A stretch of DNA of 34,404 nucleotides from an uncultured Thiotrichaceae bacterium (lineage in GTDB: Bacteria > Pseudomonadota > Gammaproteobacteria > Thiotrichales > Thiotrichaceae), in contig CALAMO010000043.1 in the NCBI GenBank assembly GCA_937925855.1, forward strand, positions 1-34,404. Direction: 5' to 3'. This document shows, piece after piece, positions 1,051 to 31,535 of this stretch. Position numbers and translations under genes: made by a program. Positions within the stretch are counted from its first letter, which is position 1, and each line of letters opens with the position of its first letter. The notes under the pieces are model-generated. The model was not told the DNA's origin. It did no database searches and saw only the letters and a list, made by a program, of their open reading frames with translations.

Positions 1051-1081
1051 CACAAACGAAATCAGCACAGATCAAGACGAA

Positions 1082-2308: not shown

Positions 2309-2365
2309 GGCTATTATAGAAACTACAAGGTATGCGGCGGGTAGAGTGGGATATGTTCATCGGCA

Positions 2366-2722: not shown

Positions 2723-2737
2723 AGAATTGCGCCACGC

Positions 2738-2998: not shown

Positions 2999-3069
2999 AT
3001 CTATCTCCTCAACAAAACGTGTAACTGCTTATTCTGAAAGCCGGAGGCTCTCTTACTCAGAAATTAAAT

Positions 3070-3399
3070 TCATTCTTCAAAGCCGCGGTTAGCTTTTTCC
3101 ACTAAGCCCGACGTACCGAAACGTCGCTCTAGCTCCGCTAACACATCAGCGGGGTGTAAGCCCTGCTGCGCCAATAAAACCATCGTATGAAACCAAAGAT
3201 CAGCTACCTCATAGACAATCTTTTCTTTATCACCGTCCTTCGCCGCCATCACTGTCTCGGTCGCTTCCTCACCCACTTTCTTCAGGATAGCGTCCAGGCC
3301 CTTGTGATAAAGCTGTGCCACATAGGAACTGTCTGCTGCGGCCTGCTTACGGGCTTCGAGCACAGCAGCGACTTCGGTTAATACACGATCATTCGTCAT
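3070..3399 (-). CDS. hisE: Phosphoribosyl-ATP pyrophosphatase HisE
   Basis: HisE hydrolyses phosphoribosyl-ATP to phosphoribosyl-AMP and pyrophosphate, the second step of histidine synthesis. It is an all-helical MazG-like protein. Visible hallmarks are [23 protein letters not shown] (residues about 22-44), where GEEATE supplies metal-binding glutamates, and [16 protein letters not shown] chose the ATG at 3399 because the homologues I know begin at that point. An ATG three codons upstream (3408) is possible, and neither has a clear ribosome-binding site. It is a monofunctional HisE: the HisI domain, fused or adjacent in many relatives, is absent here. Confidence 0.92.
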
Positions 3400-3493
3400 G
3401 CTGAGCATTATATAGAAGAACCAGCGGAAGAACAGATTAAAACTATCGGTGGTGGCGGTTGCCGCAGATTCAGACTAAGTGGTCTCATCTTCA

Positions 3494-4270
3494 TCAGCTA
3501 AGGCGCATTTCAATGCCCCGCTCAGCCATATATTGCTTGGCCTCACCCACTGTATATTCACCGAAATGAAAAATACTCGCCGCCAGCACTGCATCCGCTT
3601 TACCCACCAGCACGCCATCCGCCAAATCCTGCAAATTGCCCACGCCACCGGAGGCAATCAACGGCACATTCACGCGCTCATGAATAGCGCTCATTAAGTC
3701 CAGGTCGAAGCCACTCTTGGTGCCATCGCGATCCATACTGGTCACTAGTAATTCGCCCGCACCGTAGTTTGCCATTTTTTCCGCCCAATCCAGCGCATCA
3801 ATCCCGGTTGCCTTACGCCCACCGTGCGTAAAGATTTCCCAGCGCTTAGGCTCGCCCGCAGCACTCACGGTTTTAGCATCAATCGCCACCACGATGCACT
3901 GCGAACCATAATAATCCGTTGCATCACGCACCAGCTCAGGATTAAACACGGCGGCAGTATTAATACCGACCTTATCCGCACCTGCGTTGAGCATGCGCCG
4001 AACATCGTCCAGCTTGCGAATACCACCGCCCACCGTCAGCGGGATAAACACCTCAGAGGCCACAGCAGTGACCACATGCTCAATGGTATCCCGGTTATCG
4101 GAACTGGCGGTGATGTCCAGAAAAGTAATTTCATCCGCGCCCTCACGGTTATAGCGCGCCGCAATTTCTACCGGGTCGCCCGCGTCGCGAATATCAACGA
4201 AATTAACGCCCTTAACCACACGTCCGTTGTCTACATCCAGACAGGGAATAATACGTTTTGCCAGCCCCAT
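3494..4270 (-). CDS. hisF: Imidazole glycerol phosphate synthase cyclase subunit HisF
   Basis: HisF uses ammonia delivered by the HisH glutaminase to convert PRFAR into imidazole glycerol phosphate and AICAR. The 258-residue (beta/alpha)8 barrel shows the paired catalytic aspartates: Asp11 in [16 protein letters not shown] and the second in [13 protein letters not shown]. It also has the phosphate loops TVGGGIR and IASGGVG. The usual partner gene hisH is not in this window. It lies 20 bases after the 166-aa membrane gene and 94 bases before hisE. Confidence 0.97.
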
Positions 4271-4290
4271 AGGTCATTCCTAAGCGTTTA

Positions 4291-4791
4291 TTAATCCAAC
4301 CACGCACGGGTAGTAGGTTTGTTAATCAAATAGCGACACAGCAGGAATAGTGCCAACATGAGGCCTTTACCTAACAGGCCAGGCATCATTTCATCCACAA
4401 TAATCTGAAAGGTGAAGCTATCCGGCATTTGTAGGTACTGGTACAGCGCGGTACCCAATGTCCAGATGATGTAGTACATGATATAGAAATCGAATAGACG
4501 CCGCCCGCTGTCCTTATACCCCAGCAGGCGAAAGCCAATATAAGTCATCCAGGTGCCGACCACTAGACCAGCCACCAGAGTGAAATAAACATAGTTCAGG
4601 CTTAAGCCTAGACCGGTCCAACTCGTGCGCACATTGCCGACATCGCTCAGGCCCAGGTACAAATTCATGATATTAATGGCGAGGCCCATCATGCCAAAAA
4701 TCATAACCAGCAGGCCAACCATCCAGGGGGACTGCGCCTTTTCAGGGGCAAGGGTGTCCGCCGCAGCGCTGGCATTATGTGAAGTATTCAT
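4291..4791 (-). CDS. Unrecognised four-helix membrane protein between hisA and hisF
   Basis: I do not recognise this 166-residue protein. The first 22 residues are polar. Four hydrophobic segments follow, near residues 24-45, 63-85, 98-119 and 130-155, ending in a short cytoplasmic-looking tail (NKPTTRAWLD). The loops are short and contain no obvious catalytic motif. It is placed between hisA and hisF in the same direction, 20 bases before hisF, so it is probably in the same transcript. There is no known histidine step for a membrane protein, so the link may be positional only. Confidence 0.7.
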   Translation of the reverse strand: MNTSHNASAAADTLAPEKAQSPWMVGLLVMIFGMMGLAINIMNLYLGLSDVGNVRTSWTGLGLSLNYVYFTLVAGLVVGTWMTYIGFRLLGYKDSGRRLFDFYIMYYIIWTLGTALYQYLQMPDSFTFQIIVDEMMPGLLGKGLMLALFLLCRYLINKPTTRAWLD

Positions 4792-4885
4792 AGGTAGTTA
4801 TCCGGGTTAAACCGTCAAGTGACGTAATCGATTCCGCCGCAGGCAAAACGACGTAAGCCGCCGCCAAGTGATAGCCGCTCTGCGA

Positions 4886-5617
4886 CTACTGCGCGTCAGC
4901 AAACTGCTGAGCCTGCGCTAAATCAATTGTACCCTCATAAATCGACCGGCCCAGAATAGCCCCCATAATACCCTGCGTTTTCACCGCACACAGCGCCTCG
5001 ATATCCGCCATATCCGTCACGCCCCCCGAAGCCACAACCGGAATAGCAATACTCTGTGCGAGTTTCAGCGTCTCCTCAACATTCACGCCCGTCATCATAC
5101 CGTCACGCGCAATATCAGTGTACACAATAGCGCTGACCCCAGCCTGTGCAAACTGCTGTGCTAGCTCAACCGCAGATACGGACGAGACTTCCGCCCAACC
5201 TTCCGTCGCTACCCTACCGGCTTTAGCGTCTATACCCACAATAATATGGCCGGGAAACTGCTGACACAGTTCCAACACAAATGCGGGTTCCTGCACGGCT
5301 TTGGTACCGATAATGCAATACTGTACGCCCGCATCAAGATACGCCTGCACCGTGGCAGCATCGCGGATACCCCCACCAATCTGCACCGGTATTTCTGGGA
5401 ACGCCTGTACAATCGCCCGCACCACCTCATCATTCACCGGCTCACCTGCAAACGCACCGTTGAGATCAACCAAATGTAAGCGCCGTGCACCGGCACTGAC
5501 CCAGCGTGCAGCCATTGCCACTGGACTATCGGAGAAAACAGTGGTGTCGTCCATGCGGCCCTGCCGCAGGCGCACACATTGGCCGTCTTTTAGATCAATC
5601 GCCGGAATGAGTAACAT
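4886..5617 (-). CDS. hisA: Phosphoribosylformimino-AICAR ribotide isomerase HisA
   Basis: HisA opens the ribose of ProFAR to give PRFAR, the substrate of HisF. The 243-residue (beta/alpha)8 barrel begins [17 protein letters not shown] with catalytic Asp8. It has the phosphate loop QIGGGIRD, the second aspartate in [13 protein letters not shown], and the C-terminal phosphate site VVASGGV. Its length matches the family. In most proteobacteria hisA follows hisH directly. Here the upstream neighbour is a small membrane protein 93 bases away. Confidence 0.97.
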
Positions 5618-5710
5618 GTTTGCTGTCCTTGGTTTTGGGGGGAATAGCGTAGCGCAAACTACGGTGCAGTACGATATAACTTTAACCGCAGTGCCTCGTC
5701 CACAACAACA

Positions 5711-5905
5711 TCACCAGAAAAATGACCAGATCGACACACTTATCACGATAATGGCCATCAGGCTCAGCTTCCAGCCGCTTAAGCTACGCTCCGCATGGCT
5801 TTCTTCTTCCGTATCATAACGGGTGAATAGCAACGGTAGCATCATGCTCAACCGCCATAGCAAGTGGTCCAGTAAGCCACTCCAGCGCACCCAATGTAGC
5901 CGCAT
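5711..5905 (-). CDS. Small membrane protein, translationally coupled to the 532-aa protein
   Basis: A 64-residue unrecognised protein with two hydrophobic stretches, around residues 8-28 and 46-64, the last running to the C-terminus. I chose the ATG at 5905 because it shares one base with the TGA of the upstream gene (TGATG), and a G-rich stretch lies just upstream. A TTG one codon earlier is also in frame. The overlap argues for translational coupling and for a shared membrane complex with the 532-residue protein. This is inference, since neither protein is known to me. Confidence 0.55.
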   Translation of the reverse strand: MRLHWVRWSGLLDHLLWRLSMMLPLLFTRYDTEEESHAERSLSGWKLSLMAIIVISVSIWSFFW

Positions 5906-7503
5906 CAATAGCCCCCCGTCTCAGGCAGCGAATCAATACCGCTAGCCGCCGGCTTGTGCATCTGCGGCGCTTGTTCCTGCTCCTGCTGACGGGAATGAGA
6001 AATTACCAGCTCACGCCACATACTTTTGTTCACCCGGTAAATGTCAAAACGCCAGAGCTTGCGCCATTCGTTTTCATCCGCTTCCATCGTGAAAAACTCT
6101 TGCATGATAGCGGGCAAACGCGCCAACTCCACGGCATGGGCAAAACGGTCAATCTTTTTATGGGCATCCAGCCAAGCGACTAGACGCAACAGTTGCTGTT
6201 CGCGCTCACTGATTGCGGCCTGGGGCACTGGCACAATGAGGTAATAGCTAAGCCAGCCGTTGTAGATATAAGGCTGCAGCAGGTTAAGCTGATCATTATC
6301 CGCCGCTTTACTTTGATGGAAGCTCGCCAACTGCTTAGCATCCTGTGAGCTATAGCGCCGACCCGTGTAAAACCGGCCATATTCAATGCCATCAATCAGC
6401 CCTAGAATCAGAATAAACAGATCGATTAACAAACCGGCCACCAGGGGAACATAATCGGTACTGCTCAACTTTAGCTCAGCCAGCTTTTCCTTGGTATTCG
6501 TCAGCGTGTCAACGTCCATCAGCGAAGAGAACACCTGCCAAGCGCGCTGCAACACCGTGCGGTTATTGCTCTGGTCAAACAAAGTGACTCTACGCGGCTC
6601 TGGTAGAGCATCGAAGGCGGCAAACAGCGCGTCAATCTTGCGGGTGATTTCTGCATCCACACAGGAGACCACCACGCGCTCGTCATTATCATTCGGACTA
6701 ACCGATTCAAGGAAGCGGCGTTTATCACCGCGCCGCTCTTCCAGCTCCTCACGTATACGAATGACATTGGGGCCACGTTTGTACCCACCGATCAGCGTCA
6801 CGATATCATTCAGCTCACGCTCGCGCTGCTGCACAATACCCTCTTCACTTAAATCGAGATCATCCAGCAGGCGATTGAGCTGTAGAATATGCACACCGAC
6901 TTTGTCTTCCAGTTTACCCACATCACCCACAATCAGATTAAAACGCCGGGCCTCATCATTCCGCAGGTAATTAAGCGGCCCTTTACCGGGACGACTATTT
7001 TCACCGCACGTACCGCCATAAATATTTTCTTCACGCGCCCGCCCAGCTGAGTATTTGGATAATTCGTCGGCGACCTCGCGAACGTTAGCGAAGGATTGCT
7101 CGTAAGTTTTCGCACTGACGCGAATACTTTCAACGCCGTCTTTATAGACTTCTTGGGCGTAGCTACCGGCGCGAAACACCTCGTACCACCAACCGTAGCT
7201 GAAAAACACACTGAACAACATCGCCACAATGTAAACAAAGATAGCCAGAATCTGCGTGATGCGGCGATAAGCATGAATGGTAAATAGCAGGGTGACGACA
7301 AGCGTGGCCTGGATCGTAAATACCATGAAAGCAATGAAAATGGTTTGCCACTGCGACAGGTCATTATCATTCTCAACGTTGAGAATGACCAATCCTTTGT
7401 AGCTGGTCACATACGAAATGACCGATAGTAGAATCACCAGAATCAACGTTAATTTGATATTACGCGGTGGTTTTTCTACCTGACCGTTATCAGAAGCTGC
7501 CAT
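5905..7503 (-). CDS. Unrecognised membrane protein with large periplasmic domain
   Basis: A 532-residue protein that I cannot place in a family. Membrane helices are likely near residues 17-37, 54-76, 84-104 and 351-372. With a cytoplasmic N-terminus, this puts residues about 105-350 in the periplasm and 373-532 in the cytoplasm. The periplasmic part is helical and charged, with heptad-like stretches, and holds the only two cysteines of the protein (Cys166 and Cys281), which suggests a disulfide. The cytoplasmic part ends in a Gln/Glu-rich, probably disordered tail. AAGGA lies 11 bases before the ATG at 7503. It heads the long minus-strand gene run leading to hisA and tatABC. Confidence 0.8.
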   Translation of the reverse strand: MAASDNGQVEKPPRNIKLTLILVILLSVISYVTSYKGLVILNVENDNDLSQWQTIFIAFMVFTIQATLVVTLLFTIHAYRRITQILAIFVYIVAMLFSVFFSYGWWYEVFRAGSYAQEVYKDGVESIRVSAKTYEQSFANVREVADELSKYSAGRAREENIYGGTCGENSRPGKGPLNYLRNDEARRFNLIVGDVGKLEDKVGVHILQLNRLLDDLDLSEEGIVQQRERELNDIVTLIGGYKRGPNVIRIREELEERRGDKRRFLESVSPNDNDERVVVSCVDAEITRKIDALFAAFDALPEPRRVTLFDQSNNRTVLQRAWQVFSSLMDVDTLTNTKEKLAELKLSSTDYVPLVAGLLIDLFILILGLIDGIEYGRFYTGRRYSSQDAKQLASFHQSKAADNDQLNLLQPYIYNGWLSYYLIVPVPQAAISEREQQLLRLVAWLDAHKKIDRFAHAVELARLPAIMQEFFTMEADENEWRKLWRFDIYRVNKSMWRELVISHSRQQEQEQAPQMHKPAASGIDSLPETGGY

Positions 7504-7804
7504 ATCGGTTTACATTCCTTTAATACGCATTCCGCTGGAATTTGTGTGGTGCGTTGCACTCAGTTTGTACTCAGATTGAGTTTTCAAGGCTCTTATAGCT
7601 TAGGTTGTATTCGCTACGCAAGTTCAACGAATACCATCAAATTAGTTGCATGCAATCATAAATAAAATTTATACCTAGATTTCACGCTGCTTTTACCCGA
7701 TAGGTGGACAATAGATTAACGTCAAAACATCCTGTTTCTTGCATCCCGCACCAAAACACAGTGCAATACTAGTCAAGACGTCTACTCACATGGGAGAGCC
7801 TGTT
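7504..7804. other. Divergent intergenic region upstream of the 532-aa gene and msrA
   Basis: About 300 bases between two divergent genes, AT-rich in the middle. The one clear element is the perfect 10-base palindrome TTGCATGCAA at 7646-7655. I see no convincing sigma70 pair, tRNA or further gene. A TTG-initiated extension of msrA back to 7739 is open but unlikely. Confidence 0.4.
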
Positions 7805-8437
7805 ATGTTTGGATTTGATAAAGCACAAATGATTAGTGCACAAGAGGCATTGCCGGGCCGTGAGGCCGAAATGCCAGTACCAGACACCCACTTTGTCAAT
7901 GGCAATCCACTCAAAGGCCCGTTTCCTGCACATCTCGAACAGGCCATATTCGGTATGGGGTGCTTCTGGGGCGTTGAACGCCGCTTCTGGGTGCTAGAGG
8001 GTGTTTATACCACTGCCGCTGGTTATGCCGCTGGCTTTACACCTAACCCCACTTATCGCGAAGTCTGTTCCGGCCAAACTGGGCATAACGAGGTGGTCTT
8101 AGTGGTGTTTGATCCGGCGGTCATTAGCTACACAGCTCTGTTAACACTGTTTTGGGAGACACATAACCCCACACAGGGTATGCGCCAGGGCAATGACACC
8201 GGCACCCAGTACCGCTCCGGTATATACACCTACTCAGCAGCACAACAACAGGCCGCACTCGCCAGTAAAGCCACTTACCAGCACAGTCTTAATGTGGCGG
8301 GCCACGGTCAGATTACAACGGAGATTGTAACCGCACCAGAATTTTATTACGCCGAGGACTACCACCAGCAATATCTAGCGAAAAATCCTGGTGGCTACTG
8401 TGGGCTGAAGGGGACAGGGGTGAGCTGTTCAATTTAA
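7805..8437 (+). CDS. msrA: Peptide-methionine (S)-S-oxide reductase MsrA
   Basis: MsrA repairs oxidised proteins by reducing the S-epimer of methionine sulfoxide, taking electrons from thioredoxin. The protein is 210 residues from the ATG at 7805. I chose that start because GGGAG lies eight bases upstream and because the N-terminus MFGFDKAQ then aligns with E. coli MsrA; the frame runs further back to a TTG at 7739. The catalytic motif GCFWG has the nucleophile Cys53. The recycling cysteines are Cys199 (GYCG) and Cys208 near the C-terminus, the same layout as E. coli. The central [21 protein letters not shown] block is diagnostic. Confidence 0.96.
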
Positions 8438-8462
8438 GGTTGATGGGCTTTTAAATAAGACC

Positions 8463-10085
8463 TCACTCCAACCCTTGACTTTGTAAATAGTCATCATAGG
8501 TGCCGCGATAATCAACGATAGAGCCGTCTCCTTTTACATCGAGAATGCGCGTCGCCACCGAGCTTACAAATTCTCGGTCGTGTGACACAAAGAGCAGCGT
8601 GCCTTTGTAAATACCCAGCGCACCATTCAGTGATTCAATCGACTCCATATCCAGGTGATTAGTCGGTTCATCCATTAACATGACATTTGTATGTTGCAGC
8701 ATCAGCTTACCAAAGATCATGCGGCCCTTCTCGCCCCCAGAAAGTACGCGCACCGGTTTCTTCACGCTATCCCCCTTAAACAGCAGGCGGCCCAATGTGC
8801 CCCGAATCATGGTTTCAACATCTTCGCCTTCATAGCCGCCCTCACGCACGTAATCACTGACCCACTCCGTCAGCGTGCGGTCGCTGTCAAACTCATCTTC
8901 ATGATCCTGGTCATAGGTGGAATAAGTTGCTTTCTCCGCCCATTTAATCTTACCACTCTGGGCTACCAGCTCCTGCGTCAGCAACTTTAGCAGCGTGGTT
9001 TTACCAACACCGTTCTCACCAATAATCGCGACCTTATCACCCGCATTAACGGTGAAGGTGAAATCATTAATCAGCGGCTGTTCCATATCGTCATAGCCAA
9101 AGGTTAAACCATCGACTTCGACCGCGAAGCGGTGCAGCTTGTTTTTATCCTCGAAGTCAAAACGAATCCATGGGTATTGACGGCTGGAAGGCTTCATATC
9201 TTCCGGGCGAATTTTCTCAATCAGCTTGCGGCGACTGGTAGCCTGTCTGGATTTGGATTTATTGGCAGAAACCCTGCGGATAAACTCTTGTAACTCAGCA
9301 ATGCGCTCTTTGGCCTTGCTATTGGCCTGCTGCTGGCGCTCACGCGCCTGAGTCGATGCCTGCATGAAGTCATCGTAGTTACCGGGATAAACATTGATTT
9401 TACCGTAGTCGAGATCGGCGATATGCGTGCAGACCTGATTAAGAAAATGACGATCGTGCGAGATAATAATCATGGTGGAATCGCGCTCATTCAACGTGTC
9501 TTCCAGCCAGCGGATCGTATTAATATCGAGGTTATTGGTCGGCTCATCCAACAGCAGAATATCCGGGTTAGCAAACAGGGCCTGACACAGCAAAACCCGC
9601 AGCTTCCAGCCCGGTGCGACTTCTGACATGGGGCCATTATGCTGTTCGGTTGGAATCCCCACCGCTAACAGCAGCTCACCGGCACGCGCCTCCGAAGTAT
9701 AGCCATCTAATTCTGCAAACTGCCCTTCCAGATCAGCCGCCTTCATATAATCGTCTTCGGTGGCTTCCAGATTCGCGTAAATCGCATCGCGCTCGCTCAT
9801 AATCGCCCACATTTCCTCGTGGCCTTGGAGCACAACATCCAACACGCGCTGGTCTTCATAGCCGAACTGATCCTGACGCAGATAAGCCATGCGCTCATGC
9901 GGCTCTTTCGAGACGTTACCGGCGGAGGCTTCCTGTAAGCCACACAGGACTTTCATATAGGTGGATTTACCCGCGCCGTTCGCGCCGATCAAACCGTAGC
10001 GATTACCTTCGCCAAATTTAACGGAAACGTTTTCAAACAGTGGCTTGGCGTCGAATTGGACGGTGACATTAGCGGAGACTAACAC
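8463..10085 (-). CDS. ybiT: ABC-F family ATPase YbiT
   Basis: A soluble ABC-F protein with two nucleotide-binding domains and no membrane part. ABC-F proteins act on the ribosome, and YbiT is one of the four E. coli members. Domain 1 has Walker [10 protein letters not shown] (residues 34-42) and [11 protein letters not shown]. Domain 2 has GENGVGKTT, the signature LSGGEKGR and [10 protein letters not shown]. Between them lies the charged linker ([16 protein letters not shown] and onward). I chose the GTG at 10085 (540 residues): AAGGA sits eight bases upstream and the N-terminus [11 protein letters not shown] then matches YbiT. The frame is open to an ATG at 10124, 13 codons earlier. It is convergent with msrA. 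Confidence 0.95.
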
Positions 10086-16184: not shown

Positions 16185-17105
16185 TCAACGACTTACTTTC
16201 GCCGCAAGCAGCGCATCCATTATCGGGCTTAAAATCAACTCCATCGCCAGCACCATCTTAGCGCCCGGCACTACGATTGAGTTTTGCCGCGACATAAAAG
16301 CATGCTGAATCATATGCAGCAGATAGGAGAAATTGACCTGTAAGCGCTCTGGATCGGCAAAGCGAATCACCACTAGACTTTCATCAGGGCCTGGAATATC
16401 ACGCGCAATAAACGGATTTGAAGTGTCCACCGTGGGTACGCGCTGAAAATTAATATCGGTGCGCGAGAACTGCGGGGTGATGTGGTTGATATAGTCCGGC
16501 ATGCGACGCAGCAGGGTATCGACAGTGACATCAGCCTCATAGCCGCGCTCCGCCTTATCACGGTGAATTTTCTGAATCCATTCCAAGTTGACGCTCGGCA
16601 CCACACCAATTCCCAAATCAACGTGGCGCGCCACATCATAGCCGCCGTAGCGCTGATCACTGCTATCATCTCGCACCATGCCATGCAGCCCTTCATATAA
16701 CAGCAGATCCGTGTCCGCTGGCAGCGCCTCCCAAGGGGTGAACTCACCGGCCTGAAAACGGCTACAACGCTTACCGCGCTGTGCGAGACGCTGTCGATGG
16801 CGCGCAGCCTCAGCGGCATTATGTAAATAATAACGCTGCTCACCGCTCCCGCTGGCCCCGTAAGTGTGAAACAAGCGCTCCAAAGCATGTAAATCATTTG
16901 CCTCTGGGCCAAAATGACTGAAATGCGCGATAGCACGCGCCTGCTGCTCAAAGGCTTTCCGTGTCAGGCTGTGATAGCTGTCACCCTCGATAAAAGCAGC
17001 CCGTATCGACTTCCGCCGAAAGATGTTTTCAAAAGCTTGTTTAACAAAGGTCGTACCCGCGCCAGATGAACCAGTAACGGCAATAACCGGGTGTTTTCTG
17101 GACAA
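16185..17105 (-). CDS. prk: Phosphoribulokinase, type I (PrkB/CbbP-like)
   Basis: Phosphoribulokinase makes ribulose 1,5-bisphosphate from ribulose 5-phosphate and ATP, the substrate-regenerating step of the Calvin cycle. The 306-residue protein has a modified P-loop GSSGAGTT (residues 12-19), IEGDSYHSLTR, HFGPEANDL, LLLYEGLHGM and a PTVDTSNPF region, the proteobacterial class I form. It starts at a TTG (17105-17103), and AGGAGG lies six bases upstream, so this rare start is well supported. No RuBisCO or other cbb gene is in the window. PrkB-type homologues of unproved role exist in heterotrophs, so autotrophy is possible but not shown. Confidence 0.92.
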   Translation of the reverse strand: MSRKHPVIAVTGSSGAGTTFVKQAFENIFRRKSIRAAFIEGDSYHSLTRKAFEQQARAIAHFSHFGPEANDLHALERLFHTYGASGSGEQRYYLHNAAEAARHRQRLAQRGKRCSRFQAGEFTPWEALPADTDLLLYEGLHGMVRDDSSDQRYGGYDVARHVDLGIGVVPSVNLEWIQKIHRDKAERGYEADVTVDTLLRRMPDYINHITPQFSRTDINFQRVPTVDTSNPFIARDIPGPDESLVVIRFADPERLQVNFSYLLHMIQHAFMSRQNSIVVPGAKMVLAMELILSPIMDALLAAKVSR

Positions 17106-17925
17106 TCCAACCTCCTAAGCGTGATGCTAGGCAAATCCAATTCACAGACCTGCATGTTTGTTAATCAATTTTACCTATACCTTCCCGTAAAAGTTTGTAT
17201 TCATTCTAACCAAGGTAACCTTATACCGAAATAAGCCATTAGCAGAGGTAAAATGACTACCGTTCGTCAGTTAGTGTCGTATTCTCAACCTGTGGATAAC
17301 TCTGTGAATTAAAGCGTGGAACAGTTGTTTTAATTAGGATCTGCGTCTCCGTCGCCTCTATTAATTTATCGACTAAATTGCTGATTATAGGGGTATTAAA
17401 TTGACTATTGATTAGTGTGATACAGGTTTAATGCACCCGAATAAGTATCATCAATCCATGTTAATAATCTAACGCTATTGTCAATAAATTTTAATTATTT
17501 TTTTGCACAAATGGTTTCTACCCATAAGGTTAATGATAGATTAAGTTTTTAAAATCATATGCTTACGACACAGCTTCAACGGCCTGTGGATAAAGTTGTG
17601 TTTAACTCGTTCGTCGTCGCTAACGATAGCGACAAATGCTTACAGCATAGTCTTAAACATAAAATTCAAATACTACCACTACCTTTTGATTTTTAAGGTT
17701 TTATCTGTTTTGATTAAATTATAAGCGCCAGCTGTGTGACACAAAAAATAGCTAAGACGCTTTGTGTCGGGATGTGAATAACTCGCTCGTTTCAAGCCAA
17801 GACACCACAATATATAGTGCTTCACAGCCACTTTCTGTAACGCTTCATTAAGCCTACATTCAAAGGCGACGCGATGGGCACGATCGGTTATGATAGCGCA
17901 TCATTTATCATTAATTGGCGTAAAA
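17106..17925. other. AT-rich gap with DnaA boxes; candidate replication origin
   Basis: About 820 bases without a gene. Three exact matches to the DnaA box TTATnCACA occur, all in the same orientation (read on the minus strand): 17291-17299, 17585-17593 and 17773-17781. One-mismatch boxes lie at 17303-17311, 17501-17509 and 17597-17605. A very AT-rich stretch runs from about 17461 to 17510 and would suit a DNA-unwinding element. Two GATC sites are present (17338 and 17882). Plus-strand lines sampled by hand are C-rich to the left and G-rich to the right, as expected for an origin. dnaA itself is not in the window. A DnaA-titration locus is the main alternative. Confidence 0.6.
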
Positions 17926-24059: not shown

Positions 24060-26003
24060 ATGTCTGACGCGAAGACTTATCCCATTCCCGCCGGTTTTGC
24101 CGAGCAGGCGAATATCACCGCCGAGCAATATGCCGAGATGTATCAGCGTTCTATCGACGACCCCGATGGTTTTTGGGCGGAGCAGGCGAGCGAATATCTC
24201 ACCTGGTCGAAGAAATGGAGCCAAGTTTCGGACTGGAGTTTCGCCAAGGACGATGTCCACATCCGCTGGTTTGAGGGCGGTGAGATTAATGTGGCGGAGA
24301 ACTGCCTGGATCGGCATTTGGATACACGAGGCGATCAGACGGCGATTATCTGGGAGAGTGATGATCCCGGCGAGTCGAAAAAGATTACTTATAAAGAACT
24401 GCACGAGGAAGTCTGTAAGTTCGCTAATGTACTGAAAAGTCGCGGCGTTTCGAAAGGCGACCGGGTGTCGATTTATATGCCGATGATCCCGGAAGCAGCG
24501 GTGGCGATGTTGGCCTGTGCGCGGTTGGGGGCGATGCATTCGATTGTGTTTGGTGGGTTCTCGCCGGATGCGCTGCGTGACCGGATTCAGGATGCGGAAT
24601 GTGCGGTGGTGATTACAGCGGATCAGTCGGTGCGCGGCGGTAAGAATATTCCGCTGAAGGCGAATGCGGATAAGGCGATTGCGCAGTGCGATACGGTGAC
24701 GTCTTGTATCGTGGTGAAGCGCGGTGGCGATGCGGTGGATTGGAATGACTGCGACGTTTGGTATCACGAGGCAATGGCTGAAGCGTCAGCGGATTGTCCG
24801 GCGGAGCCGATGTCGGCGGAAGATCCGCTGTTTATTCTGTATACCTCCGGTTCGACCGGTAAGCCTAAGGGCGTGTTGCATACCACCGGCGGCTATCTGT
24901 TACAGGCGGCGATGACGCATAAGACGGTGTTTGATTATAAGGACGGTGAGGTTTACTGGTGTACGGCGGATGTCGGCTGGATTACCGGGCATTCTTATAT
25001 TGTGTATGGCCCGCTGGCGAATGGCGCGACCACGCTGATGTTTGAGGGCATTCCGACGTATCCGACGGCGAGCCGGTTCTGGGATGTGTGTGCGAAGCAT
25101 GATGTGGCGACATTTTATACCGCGCCGACGGCGATTCGCATGCTGATGGGTGCGGGCGATGAGTTTGTGGACAATAGCAAGATGCCGAATCTGCGGTTGT
25201 TGGGTACGGTGGGTGAGCCGATTAACCCGGAGGCGTGGGAATGGTATCACCGTGCGGTGGGTGGCGGTAAATGTCCTATTGTAGATACGTGGTGGCAGAC
25301 GGAAACCGGGGCGCACATGATGACGCCGTTACCGGGAGCGACGCCGTTAAAACCGGGTTCGGCGATGAATCCATTCTTTGGGGCGCAGCCGTTATTGGTG
25401 GATGATCAGGGTGTGGAAATCGAAGGCAATCCGGCGCAGGGTAATCTGTGTATGCGTGCGCCGTGGCCGTCGATGATGCGCTCGCTGTATGAGAATCATC
25501 CGCGCTTTGTGGAGGCTTACTTCTCGACTTTCCCCGGTTTGTACTTTACCGGCGACGGGGCGCGGCGCGATGAAGACGGGCATTACTGGATTACCGGGCG
25601 GGTGGATGATGTGCTGAATATCTCCGGCCACCGCATGGGCACGGCTGAGATTGAATCGGCGCTGGTGCTGCATCCGAAAGTCGCTGAGTCGGCGGTGGTG
25701 GGGTATCCGCATGAGATCACCGGACAGGGGATTTATGCTTATGTCACGCTGATGGCGGGTGAGGCGGGTAGCGATGAGCTACAGGCTGAGCTGGTGGCGT
25801 TGGTGCGGAAGGAGATTGGGCCGATTGCGAAGGTGAATATTATTCAGTGGGCACCGGGTTTGCCGAAGACGCGTTCGGGTAAGATTATGCGGCGGATACT
25901 GCGGAAGATTGCGGCGAATGAGACGGATGGGTTGGGGGATACTTCTACCTTGGCTGATCCTGGGGTTGTTGATGATTTGATTGCTAATCGGAAGAATACT
26001 TGA
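24060..26003 (+). CDS. acs: Acetyl-CoA synthetase (AMP-forming)
   Basis: Acs activates acetate with ATP and CoA through acetyl-AMP. The 647-residue enzyme has the adenylate-forming core [11 protein letters not shown], the DTWWQTETG motif that helps define the acetate pocket, [23 protein letters not shown] and the C-terminal [12 protein letters not shown]. Lys608 there is the residue whose acetylation switches off Acs in Salmonella (Lys609). TAGGAGGAACC just upstream gives a very strong ribosome-binding site. The coding strand is notably G-rich, unlike that of glyQ. A long antisense reading frame opposite its first third is only a shadow. Two hairpins follow the stop. Confidence 0.96.
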
Positions 26004-26087: not shown

Positions 26088-26588
26088 TTAAACAGAGGCT
26101 CTGAAAAACGCACTTTCAGCCTTGAGCATCGCAAATGTATTTAAGTATTCCACACCAAAAGCATTACATACATTAGGAATTGCAATCCGCCTCGCATTTT
26201 CAGCAACAAGGTTTTCGAGAGTGACAAGCTTGCATTTATTGACAGCAGAATAAGCAATGAGCCATGGATCTGCCTTGCTTAGAAAAAATGCTTTTTGCTC
26301 AGCCGGTTTATCCAAGTTACCAACATAGTTAGCTATTTCACCAAAACAAATTTGTACATCGTCATCATGATCATCGAAACGGAAAAATCCGCTTTTCTTA
26401 TTCGCAGTTGCCCAAGTAGATAGGTTATCACCGCCAACTTTATCCATCAGTTCGCGGTGAACCCAGCTTATTGTTCCAACTTTTACCTGATTCGCTATCA
26501 GCCAGTCCCAAAAAACTGGAAACACATCGATTGGGTAATAAGTGTTATTTGCTGTAATCAAAATATTTGAATCGCAACAATATTTCAC
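26088..26588 (-). CDS. DUF4411 PIN-like toxin
   Basis: A 166-residue protein of the DUF4411 family, a PIN-like nuclease fold. The N-terminus CCDSNILITANNTYYPIDVFP with Asp6 is typical, followed by FWDWL, the SKADPWLIAYS segment with the second acidic site, and the late strand LVTLE. It should cleave RNA when released from its partner. Its start overlaps the stop of the upstream ImmA/IrrE gene by four bases (ATGA), the usual sign of a coupled toxin-antitoxin pair. The target is unknown. Confidence 0.8.
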   Translation of the reverse strand: MKYCCDSNILITANNTYYPIDVFPVFWDWLIANQVKVGTISWVHRELMDKVGGDNLSTWATANKKSGFFRFDDHDDDVQICFGEIANYVGNLDKPAEQKAFFLSKADPWLIAYSAVNKCKLVTLENLVAENARRIAIPNVCNAFGVEYLNTFAMLKAESAFFRASV

Positions 26589-27781
26589 GCGGCCTTTCCG
26601 CCTTCAAGGTTTAGGAAATTGTAATATTTATTTAGCGTATCAATTTTTTTAATTCCTAGAAGGCCAAAAGCTTCATTATATAGCGTTTTTCCTTCATGAA
26701 CCTCAGAAAGCAGTGCCTGAGAAAATAAGCGCCCATTTTTCAGATTGAGCATAACATTATATTTTGGGCCACCAGGAGAGTCGGACTCTTTTTGGCGCTT
26801 CTTCTTATCGAAACTTATTTCTGCTTGGTAAGCAGATTTAAACTCGTTTCTATTAATAAGCTTTGCGTCGTATGCCCGAATAGAACTGACTAACCGGCTA
26901 ACTTTGCAGGTTTTGCTAACTCGCTGAATATTGTTATCAACGGTGTCTTCTTTGTCCCACAAAGATTTAATGATTGAGAACGGAACTAAGACCTCAGCCG
27001 CAATCCGATCACATTTGCTTTCGATGGAGTTGCTCGTGCTGCTGTTACGACTACCAAGGTCGTAATTAGACACCCCTCCTTCTCCCATCCATATATGAGC
27101 AAATTCATGGATAATAGAAAATACCTGTGCAGACTTAGCATCTTTAGTGTTAATAAAAACAACTGGGCTATAGGGATCATAAAGCGCGAACCCTCTGAAT
27201 TCATCAACAGATAAACCACGATTGTTGTTACTCCCAACAGTGCCACTTCGGAAAACTAGAATACCCAGCTCCTCAGCATTTGTGACAAGCATATTAACGA
27301 ATGCGTTAGTGTCTTTAGCCAGGTTGCGTGCTTTGTCTACCTGCAAGTACTGAATGATAGACTCAGCAATATCTTTAATAGCTGAATGACGATTAAATTC
27401 ACCAGCAAAAGGGAGAGGGGAGAATCCCTCACGTAACCGGTACTCTTTGAACCATTGCTGTTTCAGTAGAGAAGAATGATAGACATCAATAAAATCAGGA
27501 CTAAATTCTGTCCGTTCTTCGTTTCTGATTGTACGGAGATCAGGTACCTCCAACAACTCTTTAGGGGGGGTATTTAAGAAAAGGTAGCCGAAAGGTATTT
27601 TCAACTTATTTGCAAGTTGTTTGGCTTGGTTAACAGTAGGCTTGTCCTCGCCAGACTCCCACTGCATAAGCTTCTCTGGTTTAACGGTGGGTCTCATTGT
27701 AGCGGCCAAATCAATCAATGAAACACTAGATCGCGCACGACCCCATGTAATCATTTTTCCATTGATTAGTGCTTTTGCCAT
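26585..27781 (-). CDS. XRE-ImmA/IrrE metallopeptidase, antitoxin of the DUF4411 pair
   Basis: A 398-residue protein with an XRE-like helix-turn-helix (about residues 8-70, ending with the PFGYLFLNTPP motif typical of this family) and an ImmA/IrrE zinc-peptidase domain with HEFAH at residues 225-229. Proteins of this kind stand before DUF4411 genes and are thought to repress the operon and counter the toxin. The four-base overlap with the DUF4411 gene supports this. No clear ribosome-binding site is seen before the ATG. AT content is higher than in the housekeeping genes, which fits acquired DNA. Confidence 0.85.
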   Translation of the reverse strand: MAKALINGKMITWGRARSSVSLIDLAATMRPTVKPEKLMQWESGEDKPTVNQAKQLANKLKIPFGYLFLNTPPKELLEVPDLRTIRNEERTEFSPDFIDVYHSSLLKQQWFKEYRLREGFSPLPFAGEFNRHSAIKDIAESIIQYLQVDKARNLAKDTNAFVNMLVTNAEELGILVFRSGTVGSNNNRGLSVDEFRGFALYDPYSPVVFINTKDAKSAQVFSIIHEFAHIWMGEGGVSNYDLGSRNSSTSNSIESKCDRIAAEVLVPFSIIKSLWDKEDTVDNNIQRVSKTCKVSRLVSSIRAYDAKLINRNEFKSAYQAEISFDKKKRQKESDSPGGPKYNVMLNLKNGRLFSQALLSEVHEGKTLYNEAFGLLGIKKIDTLNKYYNFLNLEGGKAA

Positions 27782-27903
27782 AGCCGTCGGAAGTTAGCCA
27801 CGAGTATTTTGTGCCAACCTTGTACCACCTCATTAACATTAGTGAAAAGAAAATAGCACAACCTGAAGCATCATGCAGTATCAGAGGAGATGTGCGTGTG
27901 TAA

Positions 27904-28173
27904 ATTACTTATCAAGTATCAACGACAGAACTGCTGCAAGGGCAATATGACTTTGATGAGCTGGAAGGCCTGGCAGAGAACGAAAAACAAACCCTGCTGG
28001 ATGCGGCGGTGCTGCGTTTCCTTGAACATACTATCTGCTTCCGCGATACCTTTGACGACGACACACTGCTGATCTTCCCCAGCCTGATTAAACAGAAACG
28101 GCCTTTGCAAGATGATGTACCGACTACTGATGATATTTCCTATGTGGTGCATAGACAGTCTGATGATTTATAG
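27904..28173 (+). pseudogene. C-terminal remnant of a larger protein
   Basis: An open frame between TAA at 27901 and TAG at 28171 with no start codon and clear protein-like composition (QYDFDELEGLAENEKQTLL, then LEHTICFRDTFDDDTLLIFP and SLIKQKRP). It looks like the end of a lost larger protein. The IFPSLIKQKRP part reminds me of bacterial STAND/Roco-type NTPases with a COR-like region, but this is a weak guess. The overlapping 60-residue frame starting at 27890 has poor composition and is not a gene. Confidence 0.55.
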
Positions 28174-28221
28174 CCTAAACCGATAAAAGGAGCTTCCCAT
28201 TCTCTTGCGCTCATCTATAAT

Positions 28222-28237
28222 TATAATTGCAATTATA
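28222..28237. promoter_or_regulatory. Palindromic operator before RHH-VapC operon
   Basis: A perfect 16-base palindrome, TATAATTGCAATTATA, ends 15 bases before the antitoxin ATG. TATAAT hexamers at 28216 and 28222 could be the -10. It is a likely site for autorepression by the RHH antitoxin. Confidence 0.55.
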
Positions 28238-28252
28238 TTTTAGGACTGCACT

Positions 28253-28483
28253 ATGGGCCAAATCACAATCTACCTGGATGATGACATCATCAACACAGTA
28301 CAGAAACAAGCAGTCAGCGAGAAAATTTCCAAAAGCCAATGGATCGCCCGCCTCATCAAAGAACGTACCCGCACAGAATGGCCCGAAAGTATCAAAGCAA
28401 TGGCCGGAAGCTGGCAGGATTTCCCTGAGGCAGAAGAAATACGTGCAGGAATGGGACAGGATGTTGAGCGGGAACCGCTATGA
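28253..28483 (+). CDS. RHH (CopG-type) antitoxin of a VapBC-like pair
   Basis: A 76-residue antitoxin. The N-terminus GQITIYLDDDIINTVQKQA and then KSQWIARLIKE form the strand-helix-helix of a ribbon-helix-helix DNA-binding fold. The tail (EWPESIKAMAGSWQDFPEAEEIR) is the toxin-wrapping part. Its stop overlaps the toxin start by four bases (ATGA). A perfect palindrome lies immediately upstream. The AGGA at 28242 gives a reasonable ribosome-binding site. Confidence 0.88.
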   Translation: MGQITIYLDDDIINTVQKQAVSEKISKSQWIARLIKERTRTEWPESIKAMAGSWQDFPEAEEIRAGMGQDVEREPL

Positions 28484-28875
28484 AATACATGCTGGACACC
28501 AATACCCTGATCTATTACTTCAAAGACATGGGGAATGTTAAACAGCAACTACTCAGCAAGTCACCGCAAGATATTTTGCTTTCATCAATAGTACTGTATG
28601 AAATTGAAACTGGTTTAGCCAAGTCGATTAACCCAGATAAGCGCCGTGAGCAGATAGCGGAGTTTGCCTCAGTAGTGCCTGTGCTTGAGTTTGGTGAGTC
28701 CGAGGCGAAAGCCGCTGCACAGGTACGTGCTCGATTAGAACAGGCTGGGCAACCCATTGGGCCGGTGGATAATTTAATTGCGGGTGCAGCTTTAACATCC
28801 GGTGCGGTACTGGTTACACGCAATGTTAGCGAGTTTGGGCGAGTAGCTGGCCTGCAAGTTGAGAATTGGTTTTGA
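28480..28875 (+). CDS. vapC: VapC-type PIN-domain ribonuclease toxin
   Basis: A 131-residue PIN toxin that should cut a specific RNA, often initiator tRNA or rRNA in this class, when free of its antitoxin. The acidic active site is intact: Asp6 in MLDTNTLIYYF, a glutamate in YEIETG, the aspartate in GPVDNLIAG, and the downstream TRNVSEF motif. It overlaps the antitoxin gene by four bases. It converges on the lone RHH antitoxin gene with nine bases between stops. Confidence 0.92.
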   Translation: MKYMLDTNTLIYYFKDMGNVKQQLLSKSPQDILLSSIVLYEIETGLAKSINPDKRREQIAEFASVVPVLEFGESEAKAAAQVRARLEQAGQPIGPVDNLIAGAALTSGAVLVTRNVSEFGRVAGLQVENWF

Positions 28876-28884
28876 CTAACAGCG

Positions 28885-29103
28885 TTAAATGCCCATAGCA
28901 TCCAGCTCGTCTAACATCCGCAAAGCCTTTTTAGGATCACCACGCAATTGTGCGGCTAAAAACTGCTGCTTTGCCGCTTCTTCTGCCAACAACTGCGCAT
29001 AAAGCTCATTCGTCAGCTTGTTAACACTGATTCCGCGTTGCTGAGCCACTTTTTTCAGGTCACCAGCAATGTCTTCTGGTAGGCGGATTGAGAATATAGT
29101 CAT
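28885..29103 (-). CDS. Lone RHH antitoxin-like protein
   Basis: A 72-residue ribbon-helix-helix protein: TIFSIRLPEDIAGDLKKVAQ gives the strand and first helix, RGISVNKLTNELYAQLLAEE the second. The C-terminal part is Gln/Ala-rich. No toxin gene lies next to it on the same strand: downstream is the converging VapC and upstream is the divergent brnT. It is either an orphan antitoxin, the remnant of a pair, or a regulator acting on the shared upstream region with brnT. Confidence 0.75.
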   Translation of the reverse strand: MTIFSIRLPEDIAGDLKKVAQQRGISVNKLTNELYAQLLAEEAAKQQFLAAQLRGDPKKALRMLDELDAMGI

Positions 29104-29149
29104 AACTTCAGTAACCTCAGCGTGCTTGTGAAGATAATTGCTCTACTTC

Positions 29150-29165
29150 TATTATACATATAATA
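29150..29165. promoter_or_regulatory. Dyad between divergent RHH gene and brnT
   Basis: TATTATA and TATAATA flank two bases (16 bases in all), touching the first brnT ATG. It includes TATAAT at 29159-29164 and TATTAT at 29150-29155. TTGTGA at 29126-29131 gives an 18-base spacing to TATTAT. It is a plausible joint promoter and BrnA operator. Confidence 0.5.
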
Positions 29166-29166
29166 T

Positions 29167-29442
29167 ATGCACATGATCGAAATCGACCTCGTCAAAGCAA
29201 GAAGAAACCCTGCTAACCACAATATCAACTTAGCGGAAGCGGAAACAGTTCTGTATGACCCATTGGCACTGACATTGGAAGATGGCACTGCTGATGGCGA
29301 ACAACGTTTTCTTACCGTTGGTATGGACGCAGAAGGTCGGATTCTCGCAGTTGTCTACACATGGCGCGGTGACAATATACGATTAATCTCAGCGCGAAAG
29401 GCCACAGGCCGGGAAAAACAAAACTATGAAAGCAGAATATGA
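29167..29442 (+). CDS. brnT: BrnT ribonuclease toxin
   Basis: BrnT is a RelE-fold ribonuclease that halts growth by cutting RNA. The 91-residue protein follows the family pattern: an IDLVKARRNPANHNINLAEAE start, then VLYDPLALTLED, GEQRFLTVGMDAEGRILAVVYT and the end block RLISARKATGREKQNYE. ATGs at 29167 and 29173 are both in frame; the second is nearer the usual family start. Neither has a ribosome-binding site, and the -10-like elements lie almost against the start, so the mRNA could be leaderless. It overlaps brnA by 17 bases, toxin first, as is standard for BrnTA. Confidence 0.9.
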   Translation: MHMIEIDLVKARRNPANHNINLAEAETVLYDPLALTLEDGTADGEQRFLTVGMDAEGRILAVVYTWRGDNIRLISARKATGREKQNYESRI

Positions 29443-29698
29443 TTTGAGCAATGCCAAGCGGGGCGCTGTACTCCCTTCAGAAGGAAAAAAACGTATCACA
29501 ATGTACCTCGATAATGAGGTGGTAGAGGCATTCAAGATTAAGGCAGATGAACAAGGTACCGGCTACCAGACCATGATTAATAATGTGTTGCGTGAATATC
29601 TCGGGACGCAGGCCAAACCTGTTGATGAAGCCACGCTGCGTCGTATTCTGCGCGAAGAAATAAAGGGCACTGCACAGGCGGGGCGGCCTGAGGTGTAA
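29426..29698 (+). CDS. brnA: BrnA antitoxin
   Basis: BrnA neutralises BrnT and represses the operon. The 90-residue protein has the RHH fold in its second half: RITMYLDNEVVEAFKIKADE, then GTGYQTMINNVLREYL, followed by a helical tail (DEATLRRILREEIKG). It begins inside brnT, 17 bases before the brnT stop. The divergent dyad at 29150 is its most likely operator. A long hairpin follows the stop. Confidence 0.9.
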   Translation: MKAEYDLSNAKRGAVLPSEGKKRITMYLDNEVVEAFKIKADEQGTGYQTMINNVLREYLGTQAKPVDEATLRRILREEIKGTAQAGRPEV

Positions 29699-29702
29699 GT
29701 AT

Positions 29703-29741
29703 CTATCAGCTGTTGCGCAAGAGAACTTCAACAGTTGATAG
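29703..29741. terminator. Long hairpin between brnA and vapC
   Basis: CTATCAGCTGTTG (29703-29715) and CAACAGTTGATAG (29729-29741) make a 13-pair stem with one G-U pair and a 13-base loop. It sits between two convergent operons. No T run follows on either side. Confidence 0.5.
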
Positions 29742-29782
29742 TGCAGAATTGATACGCGCCGACAGCGATGAACGCTGAAACC

Positions 29783-30211
29783 TTAGCCATTTATAAACGG
29801 ATTAAACACCTCAACACCTAACCCGGCAAAATCCTTAGTATTCCGAGTGACTACCTTAAGCTGCTGCACCTGCGCCGTACCAGCAATCAGTGAGTCCGCC
29901 AAAGGCAGTAAATATCCCTGCTGCTTACGCTGCACACGGAACAGAGCTGCCTGTTGCGCTTCAGCCCGTCCCAGTGGAATGATGTACTCAGCATACTGTT
30001 TGACCAACTGAACGATAACACCCTGTATGTTCTGCCTACGCCTACCCTCAGGCAATAGCTTCGCCCCATATTCTAACTCATGCAGTGTAATTGCCGATAA
30101 ATGCGCAATAGACAAGCTCCCGACAAATCGAATGACGCCCGCATCTGGCTCTGGCTGGGTCAGCTCTGAAATAATATTCGTATCAAGTAAGTAATCCATG
30201 ATAGCGCTCAC
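29783..30211 (-). CDS. vapC: VapC-type PIN-domain ribonuclease toxin
   Basis: A 142-residue PIN toxin of the FitB/VapC kind. Active-site marks: LLDTNIISELTQPEP near the N-terminus, HELEYGAKLLPEGRR, LPLADSLIAGTA and the closing VTRNTKDF. The first in-frame start is a GTG at 30211 that overlaps the antitoxin stop by four bases (GTGA). An ATG four codons later (30199) gives the N-terminus MDYLLDTN, closer to relatives. It is the second gene of a phd-vapC-type operon. Confidence 0.9.
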   Translation of the reverse strand: MSAIMDYLLDTNIISELTQPEPDAGVIRFVGSLSIAHLSAITLHELEYGAKLLPEGRRRQNIQGVIVQLVKQYAEYIIPLGRAEAQQAALFRVQRKQQGYLLPLADSLIAGTAQVQQLKVVTRNTKDFAGLGVEVFNPFING

Positions 30212-30474
30212 TCGAAAGATACTTCTCGGTCTGGTGCTTTTCTATCCGGCAGTTCCAGCTCGTCACAACCTGTAAAGTTATTTATCAGCCATTGCCCCAT
30301 TGGCTCAGTCGGAGCCTGAAGCTTTTCCCATTGCTCAACCGGCACAACAACATAAGGTTTTTTAGTGCCAATATACTGTGGTTGCTCGTTGGCGCTGCGT
30401 AATAATTCAGACAGCTTTGACTTCGCTTCGGCTATCGTCCAGACAGTGCTATTTGGTTCATATGAATAAGGCAT
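30208..30474 (-). CDS. Phd/YefM-type antitoxin
   Basis: An 88-residue antitoxin with the Phd/YefM signature TVWTIAEAKSKLSELLRSA, followed by the strand KKPYVVVPVEQWEKL. This N-terminal fold binds DNA as a dimer, while the C-terminal part (PDRKAPDREVSFE) should cover the toxin. The stop overlaps the vapC start. A 12-base palindrome 20 bases upstream of the ATG is the likely operator. Confidence 0.88.
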   Translation of the reverse strand: MPYSYEPNSTVWTIAEAKSKLSELLRSANEQPQYIGTKKPYVVVPVEQWEKLQAPTEPMGQWLINNFTGCDELELPDRKAPDREVSFE

Positions 30475-30493
30475 AATGGGTGACTCTTTTAAG

Positions 30494-30505
30494 TAGTCTA
30501 GACTA
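30494..30505. promoter_or_regulatory. Palindromic operator before phd-vapC
   Basis: TAGTCTAGACTA is a perfect 12-base palindrome, followed by a repeat of GACTA at 30506-30510. It is positioned about 20 bases before the Phd-type antitoxin start, where repressor binding would block transcription. Confidence 0.5.
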
Positions 30506-30553
30506 GACTATATGCTAGATCTTGGCAAGTCACCTGCCTCCCTGGCGAACCGA

Positions 30554-31042
30554 CTAAGTGCTGATCGCCGTAAAAATCTGCTCAGCCAGCCCTTTAGAAA
30601 ACTGACTATGTTCTCGCTTCCCCTCATGATCAAAAATATCAACCATCGCGCCTTCATAAATCACCCAAACCTCTTGTGCGCCTTTAGCAAGATATAGCTC
30701 CGTTTTCTGCGCCATTTCCTGTTTGGAATTAGAAGGTGAAACAATCTCCACACACAGCTCAGGTGCTTTGTTGTAGGGCGTGGCATAACCATGCTCAGCT
30801 ACAAATGCTGCCGAAGCCCAAACTACATCCGCTACTTTGACACCATCAGACGTATTCACCGAACACTCCGTAATGATCTCGCCCTTTGGCATATTGTTCC
30901 ACAGCATGGCGGAGAGGCGACCCTGAATGCGGCCATGGTGATTAGATGCCGGACTCATCAACAGTTTGCCAAATTTATTTAGTTCGATTTTGAAAGGCAG
31001 GTTTTGCAGCTGCGAGTCATTTAGGACTTCTGACCATTCCAT
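30554..31042 (-). CDS. Uma2-family (DUF820) PD-(D/E)XK nuclease-like protein
   Basis: A 162-residue protein of the Uma2 family, which has the restriction-endonuclease fold and no settled biological role. Likely catalytic residues are Asp72 (VKVADVVW) and Glu99 (CVEIVSPSNS), followed by the helix with KTELYLAKGAQEVWVI. I chose the ATG at 31042 because AAGG lies upstream and the residues before it look non-coding; the frame is open to 31156. It sits alone between two toxin-antitoxin operons and has no obvious partner. Confidence 0.85.
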   Translation of the reverse strand: MEWSEVLNDSQLQNLPFKIELNKFGKLLMSPASNHHGRIQGRLSAMLWNNMPKGEIITECSVNTSDGVKVADVVWASAAFVAEHGYATPYNKAPELCVEIVSPSNSKQEMAQKTELYLAKGAQEVWVIYEGAMVDIFDHEGKREHSQFSKGLAEQIFTAIST

Positions 31043-31142
31043 GAGCTTGACCTTTGGTTTGTCTATGGCTCTTATTATACGGCATTTGTGGCTACGGGCG
31101 TAAAAATGACTGATTAGATAGGTCAGTGATCCAGTCCAACCA

Positions 31143-31535
31143 TCAGCCCTCCCCAAAACACCGCTTCAACAACTTTCTATCAAAACTCAGCAGCTCAAAC
31201 CCATAATGCCTGCTCTTCACACAGAGTAACGCATCAACAAAATCCAGATTTTTGTACAGCACAATATTTAACGCTTCGATAACCTGAAATTTGTCATCAT
31301 TAATGACACCGTTAAACGACAGAATGATCTTTAAATCTTCCAGTACCTCAGCTTTGGGTAACTTATAAAATTTGTGCAAGACAAAAAAAGCTTCCATGAC
31401 CACCGAATCAAGAATGATGACCTGTTTTTCAGCTTGTTCTACCTGCTCAAAGATAGAGTTCCCCTGCGGTGATAACTCGGTATGGTCACCCAGCAAATAA
31501 CGAACGATAACATTAGCATCAATCAGCGCTGTCAT
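31143..31535 (-). CDS. PIN-domain toxin
   Basis: A 130-residue PIN nuclease. The acidic pocket is visible in TALIDANVIVRYLLGD, the glutamate of VVMEAFFVLHKFY, LDFVDALLCVKSR and LLSFDRKLLKR. It overlaps the preceding 85-codon gene by 17 bases, which marks the two as a toxin-antitoxin pair with the antitoxin first. It is AT-rich compared with nearby transporters. Its RNA target cannot be predicted. Confidence 0.9.
   Translation of the reverse strand: MTALIDANVIVRYLLGDHTELSPQGNSIFEQVEQAEKQVIILDSVVMEAFFVLHKFYKLPKAEVLEDLKIILSFNGVINDDKFQVIEALNIVLYKNLDFVDALLCVKSRHYGFELLSFDRKLLKRCFGEG

Follow-up and report, generated by a model that had tools for sequence, protein, structure and literature searches.

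The gap between prk and rimO in an uncultured Thiotrichaceae bacterium is rich in DnaA boxes. The question that it raises is whether it could be a chromosomal origin of replication placed away from dnaA or, as the preliminary description of this DNA had offered as the other choice, a DnaA-titrating locus like datA. The window, i.e., the whole stretch of DNA that was analysed (34,404 nucleotides), makes up one entire contig (C43) of the draft genome, which comprises 64 contigs and 3.57 Mb.

DnaA boxes in the prk-rimO gap

The gap extends from 17106 to 17925 (820 bases) and follows prk, which lies at 16185-17105; the identities of prk and rimO were backed by protein family matches. The right edge is set by the start of rimO. 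An ORF is readable from 17890, the match to RimO starts at approximately 17935, and the edge at 17925 given earlier fits a rimO start near 17926. The GC content is 36.7% in the gap versus 51.0% in the rest of the window.

Exact matches to TTATNCACA were found, as had been described, at 17291, 17585 and 17773, all three on the minus strand. Boxes with one mismatch were also present, although they numbered five (17303, 17459, 17479, 17501 and 17597) and not three. The AT-rich stretch reported at about 17461-17510 was found again, with 9 G/C among its 50 bases. An oriC would have DnaA boxes beside an AT-rich unwinding stretch; boxes and an AT-rich stretch are both present here. In the whole genome, 134 exact boxes were counted in 3,566,792 bases versus 66 matches of the pattern read backwards. 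Therefore, approximately 0.03 exact boxes would be expected per 820 bases, in agreement with the earlier estimate of fewer than 0.05. The DnaA boxes in the gap are real and go beyond chance.

No Rfam family was found in the window. When the whole gap was compared as DNA with 39 genomes, matches were obtained in three, one of which was the window's own genome. The other two matches were short (26-27 bases), and one of them (L013) was another core, in G016, of the element described below. Elsewhere in the window, at 26088-31535, there are short genes that read as toxin-antitoxin pairs (PIN-type and others), with a GC content below that of the rest.

Two tandem copies in the window

The gap was found to hold two tandem copies, A and B, each consisting of box II, box III at 12 bp and box IV at exactly 188 bp. 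Boxes II, III and IV of both copies have a single orientation. The features are as follows.

17279-17287, plus strand: copy A, weak resemblance to box I (6 of 8 bases) at -12, shifted from the register by 2 bp
17291-17299, minus strand: copy A, box II (TTATCCACA), exact match
17303-17311, minus strand: copy A, box III (TAATTCACA), 7 of 8, 12 bp from box II
17374-17386, minus strand: copy A, nearest IHF-like sequence at +83 (8 of 9), opposite in strand to the usual site
17461-17510, no strand: AT-rich stretch, 9 G/C of 50, surrounding box IV of copy A
17479-17487, minus strand: copy A, box IV (TTATTGACA), 7 of 8, 188 bp from box II
17585-17593, minus strand: copy B, box II (TTATCCACA), exact match
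17597-17605, minus strand: copy B, box III (TTAAACACA), 7 of 8, 12 bp from box II
17679-17691, minus strand: copy B, IHF-like sequence at +94 (8 of 9), opposite in strand to the usual site
17773-17781, minus strand: copy B, box IV (TTATTCACA), exact match, 188 bp from box II

At the position where box I would be in register (-14), only 3 of 8 bases matched in copy A and 1 of 8 in copy B. No full IHF match was found in the window copies, the best being 8 of 9, misplaced and on the wrong strand. The tandem copies of two relatives, G020 and G014, were likewise poor at box I (1, 2, 2 and 5 of 8). Among the single-copy genomes, box I matched at 7 or 8 of 8 positions in 8 of 11 when the first listed box II was taken. 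The two window copies are probably tandem and partly worn.

Conservation upstream of rimO

Relatives were compared at the same locus in a set of 20 of the 24 family genomes; G002, G008, G015 and G021, which gave only distant paralogues, were left out. A pair was counted when an exact box II was accompanied, at +172 to +203, by a second box matching 7 or more of 8 bases. A box II and box IV pair in the same orientation, approximately 188 bp apart, was present upstream of rimO in 14 of the 20 genomes and absent from G004, G005, G006, G010, G013 and G019; at the G003 locus, the pair was present and box III was absent. In general, the boxes in the rimO gaps of the family were mostly of one orientation and often about 188 bp apart. 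No exact box was found at any of eight rimO loci from other families. Under a stricter rule, the best 80 of a larger number of named rimO records yielded one match, in Cocleimonas sp. (JAGLDT010000258.1). There, box II is followed by box III, matched in 8 of 8 positions, by a full-match IHF site at +107 and by box IV at +190.

When the same-orientation pair was sought anywhere in the genome, it was found in 60 of 63 family genomes (111 matches versus 4 for the reversed pattern). A gap-shift control, with pairs 214-241 bp from start to start, matched 32 of the 63 genomes, and its reversed pattern gave 2 matches. This control was not clean, partly because of a second recurring pair (about 225 bp) and partly because of the distance between tandem copies; instead, weight was placed on the reversed-pattern controls and on features outside the search pattern. 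The second recurring pair of DnaA boxes, approximately 225-228 bp apart, was observed in the window's own genome at C2:123264-123499 (L260, 3265-3500) and also in L261, L262 and L263. It adjoins a gene read as a PfkB-type kinase in the four genomes looked at.

Anatomy of the family modules

Seventy-five distinct modules, taken from loci collected by several routes, were combined and then thinned to 63 modules from 48 loci; these modules share descent, and some of them are counted twice via tandem boxes. The first box was TTATCCACA in 64 of the 75 modules, and the second was TTAT[TAG]CACA in 70. The spacing between boxes II and IV was 174-177 bp in 6 modules, 178-181 bp in 13, 182-186 bp in 4, 187-191 bp in 32, 192-198 bp in 6 and 199-201 bp in 14. 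Peaks near 17, 18 and 19 helical turns are suggestive only, because the spacing is genus-specific and false members arise from tandem boxes 12 bp apart.

A full match to the IHF consensus between the boxes was found in 36 of the 63 thinned modules, compared with 1.6 expected from shuffles. All 36 matches lay on a single strand, and 28 of them (28 of 63 modules) were located at +105 to +108; a match of at least 8 of 9 was present in 44 modules. Box III was found 12 bp past box II in 49 of the 63, and box I, in the opposite orientation, 14 bp before box II in 30, with at least 6 of 8 positions matched in both cases.

The strict pattern, which included the IHF site, was found in 36 of 63 family genomes, and the core pattern, with at most 2 mismatches, was found in 56 of 63; each control gave 0. 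Ten of the 16 family loci fetched for a core match lay beside priA. All ten had boxes I and III, an IHF site at +105/+106 that matched 7 to 9 of its 9 positions and, at +173 to +198, a further box with 7 or more of 8 positions matching. In G007, the gene order was rimO, module, prk, core, priA.

None of the 9 genomes of the window's genus matched the strict pattern with IHF, and several genomes of this genus carry a full or near-full element at priA. In the window's own genome, the sole match of the core-pattern search was a palindrome at C31:77281-77317, which is without box IV. This genome codes for IHF alpha, IHF beta and an Hda relative, as judged from protein family matches. On sequence comparison, the window is classed as a divergent member of a well-defined element.

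Distribution of the element in the class

For the class, the strict pattern was defined as two boxes plus an IHF site, separated by gaps of loosely set length; the IHF site was allowed from +89 to +119. It was found in 68 of 369 sampled genomes, belonging to 60 of 271 genera, and the reversed control gave 0. Three family members of this draw, one being the window's genome, were unmatched.

The layout was studied in 30 class loci, which were those returned with sequence and not a random draw of all matches. Box III was present at +12 in 30 of 30 and box I at -14 in 26 of 30, whereas the mean number of loci with a box at other offsets was 0.13 for box III and 0.10 for box I. Neither box III nor box I was part of the class search pattern. 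In the main pair, the IHF site was located at +104 to +108, a range far narrower than the one allowed. A relative of priA was present in the flanks of approximately 1.5 kb in 13 of the 30 loci; three priA identifications, one of them at a class locus, were checked with NCBIfam.

Comparison with DARS1, DARS2 and datA of E. coli

In scans of E. coli K-12, boxes were found at 608 (plus), 622 (minus) and 634 (minus) in the bioD-uvrB gap (L301) and at 1636 (plus), 1650 (minus) and 1662 (minus) upstream of mutH (L300), i.e., in the 14/12 bp layout at both places. By our own mapping, we take these two triplets to be boxes I, II and III of DARS1 and DARS2. The full class copies have the same layout, with an opposite box I, box II 14 bp further and box III another 12 bp further.

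In published work, box I of DARS is described as opposite to boxes II and III, with equal spacing in both loci (PMC5742627, PMC8682772). DARS2 is described there as having two IHF sites 3 bp apart (PMC4245941) and a box V with Fis sites (PMC8682772), and its conservation is described for relatives of E. coli (seven species in PMC8682772; also PMC4245941 and PMC5742627). DARS2 resembles the present element in that IHF-like matches lie past the core (at +79 and +95 in the E. coli scan) and a DnaA box lies past those. It differs from the element in the positions of both: here, the IHF site is near +106 and box IV, oriented as box II, is near +188, whereas the exact box of DARS2 past IHF lies at +197 in the other orientation, beside Fis sites (PMC8682772). 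The gene neighbours also differ from those of the E. coli DARS loci, being rimO and priA here. The window copies further differ from DARS in that they lack an in-register box I (3 of 8 bases match in copy A and 1 of 8 in copy B), and for this reason they fall outside DARS proper.

Identification of the element as datA was considered first and was set aside when the 14/12-bp core came to light; it is still a rival explanation for the copies in the window. The earlier proposal of a datA-like titrating locus was near the mark, as this is a conserved DnaA-box/IHF locus outside the origin; the full copies of relatives, though, have the DARS core.

Probable function of the element

Taken together, the box layout and its recurrence in relatives suggest that the gap is, with good probability, not an origin but a DnaA/IHF control element akin to that found across the class. 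Such an element would most likely adjust DnaA, the initiator of chromosome copying. In E. coli, opposing boxes I and II favour a head-to-head arrangement of ADP-DnaA and the release of ADP, and bending by IHF joins distant DnaA molecules. By analogy, DnaA would load onto box II and then recruit a second molecule to box III; a bend induced by IHF between the boxes would bring DnaA bound at box IV, on the same face of the helix, to the core. Where box I is present, ADP-DnaA molecules bound head to head at boxes I and II would lose their ADP, and DnaA would thus be recharged, as at the DARS loci of E. coli. Where it is lacking, as in the window copies, DnaA might instead be held (titrated), or its inactivation might be promoted. 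Since the window copies are without box I in register, titration or inactivation is at least as likely for them, and the chances that the element in the window recharges DnaA or that it holds or inactivates it are about even.

The strongest rival is a datA-like function, in which boxes of one orientation around an IHF site would favour the hydrolysis of ATP bound to DnaA or simply titrate the protein near the origin. We regard this as a serious possibility, though one that we would on balance doubt. According to published work, the essential boxes of datA share one orientation (PMC5742627), as do boxes II, III and IV of both window copies, and a minimal datA needs boxes 2, 3 and 7 and IHF (PMC10950094, PMC5742627). 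The family modules are like datA in that strong boxes of the same orientation flank one IHF site that points against them, with 162 bp between the boxes in E. coli datA and the same polarity but approximately 188 bp in the family. The distance from the rimO locus to dnaA is 31 to 178 kb in G014, G020, G007, G005, G022 and G065 and greater in other genomes. However, the opposite box I in register, present in most of the class loci (26 of 30, as given above), is a hallmark of DARS and not of datA. In addition, datA is without box I, and its weak box lies outwards of the strong box, whereas here the weak box is on the IHF side. The neighbourhoods are different as well, since E. coli datA is located at tRNA-Gly/queG and the window element between prk and rimO. 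In E. coli, DnaA boxes accumulate near the origin (PMC12371093). The boxes studied here resemble those boxes in lying outside oriC and, in several relatives, near the origin; they differ from them in having a fixed layout with an IHF site, beyond mere density.

A promoter of rimO or prk controlled by DnaA, perhaps together with an NrdR-like repressor, appears unlikely. The gap is a divergent promoter region, and the site at 17805-17820, upstream of rimO, is presumably an NrdR-like palindrome (14 of 16 positions of the NrdR consensus). By the same consensus, a palindrome of at least 13 of 16 was found in the rimO gap of 9 of the 20 family genomes and 0 of the 8 others. Nevertheless, the element is also found beside priA and unrelated genes, and it is reversed relative to priA. 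A promoter role is less likely because of this opposite direction at rimO and priA and the unrelated neighbours.

Reactivation of the DARS type may extend beyond the near relatives of E. coli and occur in a strict form across the class, and some lineages may have doubled the element, lost box I and turned a charger of DnaA into a sink; this broader proposal is tentative, and we would put it at slightly below an even chance. The strict form, often next to priA, would consist of a core of boxes I-II-III, an IHF site near +106 and a helix-phased box IV near +188. In this form, the distal DnaA box would perhaps replace Fis. A version defined by geometry in 60 of 271 sampled genera would make the recharging or holding of DnaA testable across the class. 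A search of the literature in open PubMed Central found no such element described at priA or rimO, which is weak evidence of absence.

Location of the replication origin

An origin displaced from dnaA into the prk-rimO gap is very unlikely, in spite of a box density far over chance and the AT-rich stretch, since the skew switches at dnaA in G070, in G007 and, by a strand-corrected fit, in G005, the window skew is unswitched at the gap, and another box cluster of the same genome shares its geometry with dnaA-adjacent clusters of several relatives.

As the preliminary description had indicated, dnaA is not near the gap; it was mapped to a separate contig (C2:15458-16936), where its neighbours, as read from their translations, are presumably dnaN, recF, rnpA, yidC and mnmE. 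In the window, the third-position skew on the plus strand was -0.02 in glyS, -0.15 in prk, -0.07 in rimO and -0.16 in dacB. No change of sign across the gap was therefore found in the window, the skew being negative on either side. A gene at 24060-26003 of the window, read as acetyl-CoA synthetase, had a third-position GC skew of +0.47, far from that of its neighbours.

In G070, a single contig of 4.28 Mb, the local skew changed from negative to positive at approximately 108 kb, the position of dnaA. The rimO element of this genome lies at 744 kb, where rimO and prk were confirmed and the skew was positive in 5 of 6 pieces of 2.5 kb. Two G070 samples departed from the simple pattern: 1-10,000, to the left of dnaA (+0.019), and 480 kb, to its right (-0.031). 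In G007, the cumulative minimum was at 152,575 and the strand-corrected change point was at 153-155 kb, at dnaA; the rimO element is located at 65 kb, 88 kb from the skew minimum. Because of the switch at dnaA in these two genomes and its absence at the gap, the prk-rimO gap was rejected as the origin. A skew minimum elsewhere together with poor conservation of the boxes had been named as evidence against an origin in the gap: the skew did switch elsewhere, but the boxes were kept in the majority of the relatives.

The other genomes were less uniform. The strand-corrected fit for G005 placed the change at 13-14 kb (dnaA), with 41-42 kb nearly as good and the raw minimum at 46,863; this genome tests only dnaA, because no box is present in its rimO gap. 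For G020, dnaA lies at 3,900 kb, with the raw minimum (3,902,827) beside it; the strand-corrected fit (3,927,001) fell between dnaA and the rimO gap, whose element lies at about 3,940.7-3,941.3 kb, 41 kb from dnaA. The skew of G022 was weak, with a raw minimum at 232,116 and a fit at 157,001, both away from dnaA (51 kb). The skew gave no answer in G014, for which a stretch of only 40 kb was used.

On C2 of the window's genome, the third-position skew was -0.39, -0.23 and -0.12 in three genes, the last of which ends at 6.2 kb; past this point, it was 0.01 to 0.30 in 8 of 9 genes and -0.22 in the ninth. Four exact DnaA boxes (minus, minus, plus, plus) were found at C2:3617-3747, near this change and 12 kb from dnaA, in a gap preceding a gene that we take to be fusA from its translation. 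The spacings between three of these boxes, 24 and 98 bp, are those of dnaA-adjacent clusters in several relatives, G002 and G007 among them. This cluster would be the likelier origin of this genome.

In G020, an exact DnaA box was also observed at C1:3937113 (L170), a few hundred bases upstream of a gene read from its translation as nrdA (ribonucleotide reductase) and a few kb from the rimO gap.
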